This document shows positions 49,158 through 55,380 of a DNA stretch of 64,000 nt, in pieces. The notes under the pieces are model-generated. The model worked only from the letters and a program-made list of their open reading frames with translations. It made no database searches and was not told where the DNA came from. The stretch is from Agrobacterium tumefaciens. Lineage in GTDB: Bacteria > Pseudomonadota > Alphaproteobacteria > Rhizobiales > Rhizobiaceae. Both the position numbers and the translations under genes were made by a program. Each line of letters starts with the position of its first letter. Position 1 is the stretch's first letter. The DNA lies in contig CP048485.1 of the NCBI GenBank assembly GCA_025560025.1, forward strand, positions 434,001 to 498,000, read 5' to 3'.

Positions 49158-49231
49158 TGGGGCGTCGCCAAGCGGTAAGGCACCGGTTTTTGGTACCGGC
49201 ATTCCCAGGTTCGAATCCTGGCGCCCCAGCC
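49158..49231 (+). tRNA. tRNA-Gln (anticodon TTG)
   Basis: The cloverleaf is complete: acceptor TGGGGCG/CGCCCCA, D arm with AAGCGGTAAG, anticodon stem CCGGT/ACCGG around loop TTTTGGT (anticodon TTG), a five-base variable loop and T arm CCAGG/CCTGG with TTCGAAT. G73 and an encoded CCA follow. Confidence 0.96.
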
Positions 49232-49244
49232 ATCTATTTCGAAG

Positions 49245-49556
49245 TCAGAACAACGCTCGCAGGTCGCGCCGACCATCGATCACGCGAACGATTTCCACGG
49301 AATATATTTCGCCGCCATCGGTATCCGGCACGGTTTCGTAGAGAATGATATAAGGTGCTTCGACGAGCATACGGGCGGACGGAAAAATTTCCGGGTGGCG
49401 CTCGCCGAGGCGAGGATGGTCGACCAAGCGCTCCGCTTTGGCGCGGAACCGAGCGAAATATCGCTCTGCGGCAAGAGGCTGTGATTTGCCAATATCGATG
49501 TAGATTTTCTTCACATCGCTGCGCGCGCGGGGCGTCCAGACAAGCTTAGTGGTCAC
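49245..49556 (-). CDS. ParE/RelE-family toxin
   Basis: A 103-residue toxin: MTTKLVWTPRARSDVKKIYIDIGKSQPLAAERYFARF, the ERLVDHPRLGERHPEI segment and the terminal strand EIYSVEIVRVIDGRRDLRALF match ParE, which blocks DNA gyrase. It is encoded 14 bp from the 3' end of tRNA-Gln on the opposite strand and overlaps the antitoxin gene by 11 bp. Start ATG 49556 lies inside the antitoxin's last codons, so translation is coupled. An RNA-cleaving RelE relative cannot be excluded. Confidence 0.93.
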   Translation of the reverse strand: MTTKLVWTPRARSDVKKIYIDIGKSQPLAAERYFARFRAKAERLVDHPRLGERHPEIFPSARMLVEAPYIILYETVPDTDGGEIYSVEIVRVIDGRRDLRALF

Positions 49557-49827
49557 GATTTTTCAACGAGGCCAGTTCTGCACGTGCTTCATTGAGCGCC
49601 TCGTCGAAATCCACCTCGGTTGAACCGCCACTGGCTTTGCCCTCAGCCCACAATGCACGCAGCTTGGCGATGTCGTCGCGTCGTTGAACCCATTTTGCCG
49701 ACCAGTCTCGCATCGCTTCGCGGATGACTTCGCTGCTGCTGGCATAAGCGCCGCTTTCCACAGCATCACGCAAGATTTCGGCGTGCTGGGGCGTCATCGA
49801 GACGCTGATCTTTTCAACGTTGGCCAT
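49546..49827 (-). CDS. ParD-family antitoxin
   Basis: ATG at 49827 gives 93 residues: a ribbon-helix-helix DNA-binding N terminus (MANVEKISVSMTPQHAEILRDAVESGAYASSSEVIREAMRDW) and a C-terminal toxin-binding tail with DEALNEARAELASLKNRDH. The ParD family also represses its own operon. GGAGAAATGAC lies before the ATG, and an inverted repeat ATTGGT/ACCAAT lies at 49845-49869. A longer frame to 49980 is not supported. Confidence 0.92.
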   Translation of the reverse strand: MANVEKISVSMTPQHAEILRDAVESGAYASSSEVIREAMRDWSAKWVQRRDDIAKLRALWAEGKASGGSTEVDFDEALNEARAELASLKNRDH

Positions 49828-49844
49828 GTCATTTCTCCGTGGAT

Positions 49845-49869
49845 ATTGGTAGGAATTATTACCACCAAT
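49845..49869. promoter_or_regulatory. Putative ParD operator
   Basis: ATTGGT (49845-49850) and ACCAAT (49864-49869) form perfect inverted arms around a partly symmetric AT-rich centre (GGAATTATTACC). It lies 18 bp before the antitoxin start, as expected for autoregulation. Confidence 0.55.
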
Positions 49870-49953
49870 TGGTTTTTGGCGCGAGATATTTTTCCGACGC
49901 CCTGGTGGCAATGCACCGGAGGATGCCGGTGCGGGTGGAGAAGTCACCTCCAA

Positions 49954-49987
49954 CAAAAAACGCCGCGCATCCAGAGACACGCGGCGT
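49954..49987 (-). terminator. Rho-independent terminator of mqo
   Basis: Read on the minus strand, CGCCGCG pairs with CGCGGCG around a loop of 12 bases and is followed by TTTTTTG (six A residues at 49955-49960 on the plus strand). It lies 25 bp beyond the mqo stop codon. Confidence 0.88.
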
Positions 49988-52819: not shown

Positions 52820-52896
52820 CGGAGTGTAGCGCAGTCTGGTAGCGCACCACGTTCGGGACGTGGGGGTCGGAGGTTCGAATCCTCTCACTCCGACCA
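52820..52896 (+). tRNA. tRNA-Pro (anticodon CGG)
   Basis: Acceptor CGGAGTG/CACTCCG, D arm around AGTCTGGTAG, anticodon stem CCACG/CGTGG with loop TTCGGGA (anticodon CGG), a five-base variable loop, T arm GGAGG/CCTCT with TTCGAAT, A73 and encoded CCA. The 3' end is not repeated elsewhere in the window. Confidence 0.96.
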
Positions 52897-53260
52897 GCTT
52901 AAGCCCTGTCCCGACGGCTTCTTCTTCACAATCTCAGCAGTTCCCGGCTTCGGCAACAAAGAGCCGTTGCATTCTTCGCCATTCGCGGCGGCAAAACTGT
53001 CACCACATCTTCACAATTTCTGGTTTATCGACATCACGCGATGCTGACGCGACACGGCGCGGGGCCTGAGAGAATTTTTGCTATTCTCTTCTATTGAATA
53101 TTTCCAGATTCAGAATATAAATCGCAATTAATATTGTAAGGTTTGAGTATACATCTCCAACTTGAGGGAGAGTATCGGCTTTTTTGCCGTTTTTTTTTGA
53201 TTTTTAAGCCGTCGTTCTAATATGCATTATTTTTTATCATACTATTTTTGAGGATTAGAG
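52897..53260. other. AT-rich junction between tRNA-Pro and the holin-lysozyme gene
   Basis: GC content falls sharply from about 53060 (runs such as TATTGAATATTTCC and ATATAAATCGCAATTAATATTG) to the next gene, unlike the rest of the window. This suggests acquired DNA. A hairpin CGGC-TTTTTT-GCCG with nine T residues lies at 53176-53198. No frame in it looks coding, and no duplicate of the tRNA 3' end is seen. Confidence 0.65.
53176..53198 (+). terminator. Terminator-like hairpin in the AT-rich junction
   Basis: CGGC (53176-53179), six-base loop, GCCG (53186-53189), then nine T residues. What transcript it would end is not clear: read-through from tRNA-Pro or an unseen RNA. Confidence 0.6.
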
Positions 53261-54439
53261 ATGAATCCATTGGTTGCCATTGCCATTGCACTGGTCCCGG
53301 ACCTGGTTCGATTGATTGCGGGAGACAAGGCCGGAGCCTTTTCGGAGAAAGTAGCCGCTGTGGTTAAAGAGAAGACCGAGACCGATGACGGCGGGGCGGC
53401 ACAAGCCAGGGTTGACGCTGATCCGCAGGTGAGAGCGCAATTGCAGAAGGCGCTTGTGGACGCCGCCTTGAACGAGACAAAAGAGCAAAATCGCGCCGAG
53501 GAAGCAAAACGCGAAATCGAGTTTGAGGCGCTGAAAGAACAATTCGCTGAGGCGGGCCGCGAGCGCGAAGACGCGATGATACGGTTCCGCGAGGAATTGC
53601 AAAGCATCCAGAACGCCCGAAGCTTCTATGCCGATCTTGCAAAGTCCGGCAATCCGGCGGCCTGGATCAATCCCTTGCTGTCGGTCGTCATCACGCTTGG
53701 ATTTTTAGCGCTTGTCTATCTGCTGCTTTACGCTCCGGCGCAGGATGTCGAAAAGAATCAAGTCTTCAATATCGCTCTCGGTGCCCTGGCCACCGCTTTC
53801 GCGACCGTCATCGGGTTTCACTTCGGTTCTTCTTCGGGGTCGAAGCAGAAGGACAATGTCAATGCGGCGATAATGGCCGAACAGGTCGCGAAGCTGGAGG
53901 AACAGCAAGGCGGGCCTGTTTCAAGAGATAAAGCGCGCGCTGGCGAAATAGCCGATAGCCGTTCCGAAACCACCAAATCCACGGGGTCCGGCTCCGGTGA
54001 TCTTTTCAACCAGAAAGCCCCTGGAATCATGACGGATCTGATGAAGGATGTCGGCATCACCGATTTTCAGGCGGGCGGCATCCTGGGCAATATCGGGCAT
54101 GAATGTGCCGGCTTCAAGCATTTTCAGGAGATCGGTGTAAAGCCGCCAAAGGGCGGCTGGGGGTGGTGCCAGTGGACCGGCGTTCGCCGTACCGCCTTTA
54201 TGCAATGGATCGCGCAGCGGGGATACGCCCCCGAATCCGACGAGGCCAATTACGGTTTTCTTGTCTATGAATTGAATGGCAGCGAGCAAAGCGCTCTGGC
54301 GCATCTCAAAAAGACGGGCAGTCTGGAAGAGGCGACAAAAAGCTTCATGGAAAAGTTCGAACGGCCCGGCGCTCCCCACCTCAATAGCCGTCTTGCTTGG
54401 GCAAAACGCGCAATGAAAGCTTTCGGGGAGGGCGTATAG
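53261..54439 (+). CDS. Fusion of GTA-type 3TM holin and phage tail lysozyme
   Basis: A 392-residue protein with two phage-lysis parts in one chain. Residues 1-200 resemble the GTA_holin_3TM family: an N-terminal amphipathic/hydrophobic segment (PLVAIAIALVPDLVRLIAGDKA), a charged helix, two strong transmembrane helices (about 137-157 and 168-188) and the family-like end FGSSSGSKQKD. After a Ser/Gly linker, residues about 252-390 resemble phage tail lysozyme (Phage_lysozyme2): FQAGGILGNIGHECAGFKHFQEIG with the likely catalytic Glu281, and GGWGWCQWTGVRR. The next gene starts directly at its stop. Such fusions are rare; a role in lysis is inferred. Confidence 0.8.
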   Translation: MNPLVAIAIALVPDLVRLIAGDKAGAFSEKVAAVVKEKTETDDGGAAQARVDADPQVRAQLQKALVDAALNETKEQNRAEEAKREIEFEALKEQFAEAGREREDAMIRFREELQSIQNARSFYADLAKSGNPAAWINPLLSVVITLGFLALVYLLLYAPAQDVEKNQVFNIALGALATAFATVIGFHFGSSSGSKQKDNVNAAIMAEQVAKLEEQQGGPVSRDKARAGEIADSRSETTKSTGSGSGDLFNQKAPGIMTDLMKDVGITDFQAGGILGNIGHECAGFKHFQEIGVKPPKGGWGWCQWTGVRRTAFMQWIAQRGYAPESDEANYGFLVYELNGSEQSALAHLKKTGSLEEATKSFMEKFERPGAPHLNSRLAWAKRAMKAFGEGV

Positions 54440-55114
54440 ATGCCTGGTTTTGTCACTGGCGTGGATATTTTCTTCAAGATCGCGCTCGCGGCGATCGCCG
54501 CTTATGTCAGCTATCAGTTCGGCGCCTTCAAACAGCAGAACGATGATATCAAGCTCGTGGTCGATCTGGCCTTTGCCAGGGAGGACCGCACTGCAGTTGC
54601 AGGTGTCACCCTCGCATCGCATTATTTTGCGCAGAAACGTATCCCCAAGGAATTTTACGACTCGGTAATGACCTCCGTCGGTAAAGACGGCAACAAGACT
54701 CTCGTCCTGGCGGCCACAAGCAGCGCCAATGAGATCGTGCAAAACAATCCTGAAGTCGCCCAGCAGGTGGTAACCGCTTCGAACGCGCTTCCCGCCCGCG
54801 TATTTTTTCAGATCAGCCGGGAGGTGGATCGGGCAAAGGCCAGGGCGATAGAGGAGATGCTGGAGGCACGGGCCGTATCACCAAGCCCGCAGGCCGTTTT
54901 TGTGCCCGGCATCGAGTTTGTGAACACGCCGATGCGCCAAACCGAGGTCAGGTGTTTCAGGAAGGAAGAATGTGACACTCTGGGTGCGGGACTGGTCGAG
55001 TTTCTGAAAGAAAATGCCGTGCCAGCCAAATTGAACGACATGAGCGACACTTACGGAAAGTCCAAGAAGATTCTTCCCAATACTTTTGAAGTGTGGTTCT
55101 CCCCGCTCTCTTAA
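54440..55114 (+). CDS. Membrane-anchored partner of the holin-lysozyme protein, unknown function
   Basis: A 224-residue protein whose ATG follows the previous stop with no gap, so it is co-translated with the lysis protein. It has one N-terminal transmembrane helix (about 10-28, DIFFKIALAAIAAYVSYQF) and a large soluble domain. A Cys pair occurs in RCFRKEECDTLGAGLVEFLKEN. The C-terminal region (EVRCFRKEE...EFLKENAVPAKL...EVWFSPLS) recalls small alpha/beta modules at the ends of peptidoglycan- or effector-associated proteins, but I cannot name a family. Function unknown. Confidence 0.75.
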   Translation: MPGFVTGVDIFFKIALAAIAAYVSYQFGAFKQQNDDIKLVVDLAFAREDRTAVAGVTLASHYFAQKRIPKEFYDSVMTSVGKDGNKTLVLAATSSANEIVQNNPEVAQQVVTASNALPARVFFQISREVDRAKARAIEEMLEARAVSPSPQAVFVPGIEFVNTPMRQTEVRCFRKEECDTLGAGLVEFLKENAVPAKLNDMSDTYGKSKKILPNTFEVWFSPLS

Positions 55115-55250
55115 GGTCGTGCGAGGGTCCTTCAGTTCAAGTCGAAGAGCTGATGCATTTAGCCCTATATCATGATTGAAGCCCGATGTTTGTTTGCGCA
55201 CAAGCATTGGGCTTTCATGCCGCCGACCTGAAATCCTCCCTTTGTGAAAG

Positions 55251-55275
55251 GGAACGCAACGGCTCTTCGGCCGTT
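55251..55275 (+). promoter_or_regulatory. EcfG-type promoter of the 25-residue membrane protein
   Basis: GGAAC at 55251-55255, a 16-base spacer and CGTT at 55272-55275 match the general-stress consensus. The site lies 28 bp before the ATG at 55303. Confidence 0.75.
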
Positions 55276-55302: not shown

Positions 55303-55380
55303 ATGCTTAAGGGTATTGCACTGTGGGCTATGGGCGTTCCGATCTTCGTGATCATTCTGCTTTATATGTTCGTGTTTTAA
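55303..55380 (+). CDS. 25-residue membrane micropeptide
   Basis: ATG at 55303 follows ATGGAGGAT, a strong ribosome site, and the frame stops at TAA 55380. The product MLKGIALWAMGVPIFVIILL-YMFVF is one transmembrane helix with a single Lys at residue 3. The site, length, strong ribosome site, an EcfG-type promoter ahead and a terminator behind make it a real gene. Similar one-helix proteins seem widespread in alphaproteobacteria; I do not know a function. Confidence 0.75.
   Translation: MLKGIALWAMGVPIFVIILLYMFVF

Follow-up and report, generated by a model that had tools for sequence, protein, structure and literature searches.

A two-gene cassette beside tRNA-Pro in Agrobacterium tumefaciens joins a holin-like membrane module to a predicted lysozyme and may encode a self-lysis device

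In the timing of phage lysis, holin and endolysin are normally kept apart. A fusion of the two has been reported in Clostridium sporogenes, in the TpeE family, with an N-terminal holin-type part and a C-terminal endolysin in one chain, and the review concerned proposes that the C-terminal cargo of fusions of this kind is flipped across the membrane (PMC9527704). Host-owned lysis cassettes outside phages are represented by the Type 10 secretion system, which is reported to act by lysis (PMC10847048). In Caulobacter, lysis for the gene transfer agent (GTA) proceeds by way of LypABC, and canonical holin–endolysin genes were not found (PMC13236601); therefore, other kinds of lysis genes occur in the class. 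Here we describe a fusion gene at positions 53261–54439 (+) of a 64,000-nt stretch of the A. tumefaciens contig CP048485.1 (positions 434,001–498,000; hereafter the window), which encodes a holin-like membrane module and a predicted lysozyme in one chain of 392 amino acids (aa). An initial annotation, made from the letters of the window, had placed a holin–lysozyme fusion there, and we found the frame at exactly these coordinates. We tentatively propose, with slightly less than even confidence, that the gene belongs to a mobile two-gene cassette encoding a conditional, host-owned self-lysis device in one chain.

The open reading frame (ORF) of the fusion is intact. Its C-terminal part, annotated as a lysozyme, matches PF18013 (Phage_lysozyme2) at residues 256–388 (54026–54424, +) with an E value of 4.4e-27 and 95.4 bits, against a curated cut-off of 28.2 bits, and the domain is present in 36 of 36 aligned relatives. 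The NIGHECAGF motif noted at the outset is there and carries the presumed catalytic glutamate, Glu281, which aligns with E45 of the phi29 tail lysozyme gp13 (3csr); the two proteins also share the fold and neighbouring motifs. As judged from alignment and model, the C-terminal domain is of the muramidase fold, with predicted activity. Unlike gp13, the Agrobacterium lysozyme is tethered to a membrane module and is not a tail protein. A search of 5.8 billion proteins for homologues of the fusion, in which 7,991 candidates were scored, gave 140 matches, and 54 of the 120 listed cover 96% or more of the fusion, so that the union of the two domains in one chain is not a matter of chance. Nonsynonymous and synonymous divergence (dN/dS) from the copy at locus L007 was 0.0022/0.0416 for the fusion gene and 0.0078/0.0885 for the gene that follows it (gene2); these values indicate that purifying selection is keeping both genes.

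The N-terminal membrane module comprises residues 1–200 (53261–53860, +), ends in a conserved HFGSSxGSKxKD motif and has three hydrophobic segments by hydropathy (residues 3–21, 139–157 and 168–186). In the AlphaFold2 model of the fusion (mean predicted local distance difference test score (pLDDT) 80.2, predicted template modelling score 0.43), the first segment is predicted as two short helices (3–11 and 15–21), a long helix of 74 residues spans 55–128, and the other two segments lie in the longer helices (132–157 and 167–187) of a predicted transmembrane (TM) hairpin (residues 132–187; 53654–53821, +). A further helix at 191–215 is modelled at low confidence, and residues 215–245 (53903–53995, +; pLDDT below 50) are predicted to form a disordered linker, which is variable in the alignment. 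PHROG 1544 matches residues 2–206 (E = 1.6e-13) and PHROG 9990 also matches the N-terminal part (E = 5.4e-7), both being uncharacterised phage families. Nine records of Vibrio phages, with identities of about 26%, are further phage kin of the module; one of these loci contains tRNAs, hypothetical proteins and a terminase.

The initial annotation had assigned this part to the GTA-type holins with three TM segments. A lysozyme joined to a membrane module stands, but the holin identity does not: PF11351 (GTA_holin_3TM) gave no match in the protein at E ≤ 1 and matched 3 of 36 aligned fusion relatives, with a best E value of 0.096, and a profile–profile comparison with hhalign of ten N-terminal modules and seven PF11351 proteins of the same order, both small alignments, returned a probability of 0.4%. 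As all sequence and profile matches were non-significant, we rejected this identity; what the two have in common is several hydrophobic segments. PF11351 matches (E ≤ 0.001) occur in 19 of 150 genomes of the order, and the genome studied here is not among the 19. With three hydrophobic segments and two long helices modelled as a hairpin, the module has the predicted membrane-spanning character of the holin class, and from sequence and model we regard it as a holin-like membrane module with putative holin activity. TpeE holins are reported to have one short TM helix and an amphipathic helix (PMC9527704), whereas in the Agrobacterium module a TM hairpin follows a long helix. The likeness to TpeE is one of layout, and the present family differs further in its other hydrolase families, its conserved second gene and its home in the Alphaproteobacteria.

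With residues 1–205 as the query, 48 proteins matched, and 46 of them bear a wall-hydrolase domain: PF18013, PF08291 or PF05951, PF05838 with PF09374, or PF05257. For the other two no domain was called, and the 46 include two whose match spans at most one-fifth of the N-terminal part; the search was blind to proteins under about 215 aa, and free-standing modules are possible. The module is found joined not only to lysozyme but also to M15, GH108 and CHAP wall hydrolases. Five genomes of the order match the N-terminal part only; we read the proteins of all five, and in the three that we scanned the C-terminal part is GH108. In a tree of the module (58 rows), the four hydrolase labels require 3 changes versus 19.9 in shuffles. 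The M15 group forms one side of a branch with support 94/82; a group of 30 with support 100/99 holds the M15 rows, 13 lysozyme rows (mostly marine, a label drawn from a few named members, Roseibium, Ruegeria and Roseobacter) and one CHAP row, and the GH108 rows are placed among the remaining lysozyme rows. By this tree the M15, GH108 and CHAP proteins share the membrane module with the fusion and differ in the hydrolase; in the marine pair, the second gene encodes the M15 form. On the simplest reading of these sequences, the marine pair would have arisen by duplication, together with a few hydrolase swaps.

The module was also seen in two other chains. At locus L054 (853–2874, −), a 673-aa chain consists of PG_binding_1, the N-terminal module and GH108, and its first 150 residues resemble, by eye, the start of a protein encoded near gene2 in S. 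fredii (L141, 4655–6385). In another family of the class, the module matches (E = 3.4e-44) within a 463-aa frame of genome G418 (C2:349417–350169, L013).

The second gene of the cassette, gene2 (54440–55114, +; 224 aa), begins on the base that directly follows the fusion, in agreement with the two-gene module first described. Alignment and model predict an N-terminal membrane helix, a helical part and a C-terminal alpha/beta part, the last with two cysteines, C172 and C178, that are invariant in 12 of 12 aligned sequences. Searches against Pfam, PHROG, NCBIfam and PADLOC gave gene2 no significant family. All seven other loci that we read have a direct downstream partner of the fusion: gene2 in four (Ensifer aridi L006, Agrobacterium genomosp. 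13 L007, Rhizobium L008 and Phyllobacterium L009) and a second N-terminal module joined to an M15 peptidase in three loci of marine type (Ruegeria L010, L011 (G057) and the viral contig L060). On the S. fredii plasmid pSfreNXT3a, gene2 is intact and preceded by a 94-residue ORF (L141, 8715–8999), which by eye resembles only the start of the fusion and appears to be a remnant. An R. phaseoli plasmid (L142, 3457–6233) has, behind a gene for an S8 peptidase, one whose protein is annotated as a phage tail tip lysozyme and also bears what looks like an amidase part.

The cassette occupies an inserted segment (52897–55248) whose left edge is tRNA-Pro(CGG) (52820–52896, +), the adjoining tRNA of the initial annotation. 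The GC content of the segment is 0.533 versus 0.604 for the window, in which the lowest of 229 non-overlapping pieces of the same size reaches 0.565, and an AT-rich front is borne out by a value of 0.423 at 52897–53260. GC content at third codon positions is 0.64 and 0.66 in the two cassette genes, lower than in the mqo-like gene (0.79) and cysN (0.80). We found cysN in 39 of 39 genomes of the genus and compared the loci of 30. Two of them have the module, namely the genome studied here and G446 (same species, the genome of L007); 21 keep the order of tRNA-Pro and cysN but lack the segment, and seven show only cysN. The 364 bases 3′ of the tRNA have no match in the 21 module-free sister genomes, and homology to these resumes between 55247 and 55251 in 17, with a delay of up to 36 further bases in the remaining four. 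The side of tRNA-Pro is a variable spot, since sister genomes carry other segments there, of 136 to 914 bases between the tRNA and cysN. The pair at L008 also adjoins tRNA-Pro(CGG), in reversed orientation, and the reversal suggests that it arrived independently or was inverted. A search for att repeats reported none in direct orientation that matched the end of the tRNA.

Several small features were noted at this site. Nine sister loci (L018, L022–L025 and L028–L031) have a minus-strand ORF for a small lipoprotein-like protein between tRNA-Pro and cysN. A 16-nt inverted repeat (94%; 52959–52974 and 55252–55267) lies around the module and may be due to chance, other pairs of 13–17 nt being present in the same stretch. 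About 60 bases 5′ of the fusion start, a hairpin is followed by nine T (53176–53198), with seven T in L007; a conserved RNA leader was rejected, as hairpin and T-run were seen in the window and L007 and not in L006, L008 or L009. The tRNA was the sole match above cut-off in an Rfam scan, and promoter and terminator scans yielded no more than shuffles. A 25-aa hydrophobic ORF (MLKGIALWAMGVPIFVIILLYMFVF) lies at 55303–55380, between gene2 and cysN, and the stretch around it matches all 21 sister genomes at least partly.

The neighbouring ORFs are presumably cysN, cysD, cysH and mqo; this accords with the claim that no other phage gene is around, a reading made by eye, with PHROGs not run. On the same reading, the fusion lies between tRNA-Pro and cysN and not among phage structural genes, as a lysis module of a prophage or GTA would. 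Elsewhere in the window (49158–49980), ORFs that we take to encode a RelE/ParE-like toxin and a ParD-like antitoxin stand beside a tRNA-Gln, as a second small cargo at a tRNA.

The fusion is rare among relatives. Our genome searches scored few candidates per genome, so that all counts are lower bounds, and each includes the genome studied here. The full-length fusion was found in at least 2 of 61 relatives, in at least 2 of 397 genomes of the order (14 more gave half-matches, five to the N-terminal and nine to the C-terminal part) and in at least 1 of 385 genomes of the class, where two others match the N-terminal part and a second query on this sample also gave one. At least 3 of 394 Rhizobiaceae genomes have gene2: the present one, G1095 (with pSfreNXT3a) and G1105 (which fits L008). 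Release of GTAs, suggested in the initial annotation, is unlikely, because such a distribution does not fit a vertically kept GTA. Nor do all homologues lie inside complete prophages.

The side of the membrane on which the hydrolase lies bears directly on how the cassette could work. M15 relatives have a long acidic loop (lysine plus arginine 8.6%, aspartate plus glutamate 18.1%) and a strongly basic stretch behind the second TM helix (23.1% and 0.9%), and the charge rule fits a cytosolic hydrolase in 14 of 16 of them and in 5 of 5 GH108 relatives. By homology to the M15 relatives, the lysozyme should be in the cytosol, away from its substrate; from this we propose that it acts after a membrane breach, as for holin and endolysin. 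The module would be seated in the inner membrane and keep the lysozyme facing the cytosol, where the tethered enzyme would be harmless at rest, the peptidoglycan lying outside. On a trigger, which could be loss of membrane potential, infection or other stress, the modules would cluster and breach the membrane; the lysozyme, on its flexible linker, could then reach and cut the wall, and the cell would lyse. gene2 probably restrains or senses, in the manner of an immunity protein or antiholin. In the marine branch, with the M15 peptidase on a second module, both glycan and peptide bonds could be cut. The lysis may serve to release a product or to defend against phages.

Several observations weigh against this self-lysis device. 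The module belongs to no known holin family, judging by the PF11351 profile comparison, and the restraint role of gene2 draws on a single decayed locus. No trigger or regulator is known. No spanin was recognised by PHROG match of gene2, spanins being highly variable in sequence. The Type 10 secretion system likewise has host-owned holin and endolysin functions outside phages, but as separate holin, endolysin and spanin genes, and the Agrobacterium cassette has one chain and no recognised spanin (PMC10847048). Defence-type neighbours are no more frequent, by count of families, than in eight control regions (below). Finally, the charge rule fits a cytosolic hydrolase in 17 of 36 members of the lysozyme group itself, and a periplasmic enzyme is possible. 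This count and the disordered, variable linker would suit a membrane-anchored wall-remodelling enzyme, a periplasmic lysozyme that would make local cuts in the peptidoglycan, in the service of secretion or of an envelope machine, and leave the cell unlysed, with the module only as its anchor; the invariant cysteines in the soluble part of gene2 could likewise form a periplasmic disulfide. We consider this enzyme unlikely, though deserving of real weight: at the positions of residues 1–5 no lysine or arginine occurs in 36 of 36 sequences and no ordinary signal-like start is seen (no predictor was run), in the M15 and GH108 relatives the charges speak for a hydrolase in the cytosol, and the distribution is very patchy, unlike that of a housekeeping enzyme.

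We give comparable weight, again on the unlikely side, to an abortive-infection effector, that is, a lysis device set off by phage infection, which would be a special case of the self-lysis device. Within 3.5 kb of the E. aridi pair (L006) there are matches to ThsB-TIR (3e-149), to a Fic protein from the candidate system PDC-S04 (2.3e-70) and to a radical SAM protein resembling viperin (1.6e-18); L011 has a type II methylase and an MkoA-like kinase match, and L010 an HsdS-like remnant. Insertion at a tRNA in the window and an integrase neighbour in L060 also fit a defence cargo. We compared PADLOC families at 1e-10 among all tiled ORFs of at least 110 aa, module genes omitted, in eight target loci and eight control regions, the latter set at arbitrary round coordinates in five genomes and unmatched to accessory DNA. 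Counted as families and not as members, there were 49 from 80 target ORFs versus 55 from 104 control ORFs; the 25 target families displayed all come from L006, L010 and L011, a further 24 not being displayed. Despite suggestive hand-picked scans, we therefore rejected defence-island enrichment as a general claim. The fusion and gene2 of the window matched no PADLOC family at 0.1 (2023 library), and relatives of gene2 gave two matches, both at E of about 0.03. It seems improbable that the cassette is a lysis module of a phage, tailocin or GTA, whether as a remnant or still in service. The pair on viral contig L060 stands beside an integrase, with a fusion protein identical to P0030 of Roseibium album; the module has phage kin in PHROG 1544 and the Vibrio records, and 124 phage records contain the lysozyme type, the 40 of them that were listed matching the C-terminal part only. 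Neither the 50,697 phage records nor the 72,556 plasmids searched have a place covering 80% of the fusion, however. L060 alone has the whole fusion among the 80 viral loci retained of 120 found and was the only return of a scan of viral contigs for the module, a scan for gene2 gave no match, L060 bears a separate amidase gene, and gene2 is rare in the Rhizobiaceae. Very improbable, in our view, is an antagonistic toxin–immunity pair aimed at other cells, for which gene2 outliving the fusion on pSfreNXT3a and a C1 peptidase and a peptidoglycan-binding protein annotated near that locus could speak: no export signal or secretion partner was seen by eye (no predictor was run), and a chain with a membrane hairpin is unlikely to be delivered to other cells.

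The fusion family was not met in the literature that we searched, a search that mostly excluded subscription journals; the term holin–endolysin fusion occurs there in two papers, PMC9527704 and PMC13230199. Beyond the self-lysis device, and doubtful at this stage, the family could form a new class of programmed-lysis effectors, in which an inner-membrane module holds one of four unrelated hydrolases in the cytosol and, on a trigger, opens the membrane and delivers the enzyme; such effectors would be mobile cargo working in pairs, a muramidase plus either a small partner or an M15 peptidase, probably in immunity. A holin-like part and a lysozyme in one chain would need another way of timing and delivery, and the fusion would allow one to test directly whether a holin can carry its own C-terminal cargo across the membrane, as has been proposed. 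The four hydrolase types on one membrane module are a natural experiment on what the module requires. If the device does belong to the host and infection triggers it, wall hydrolysis would be added to the known death modes of infected cells.
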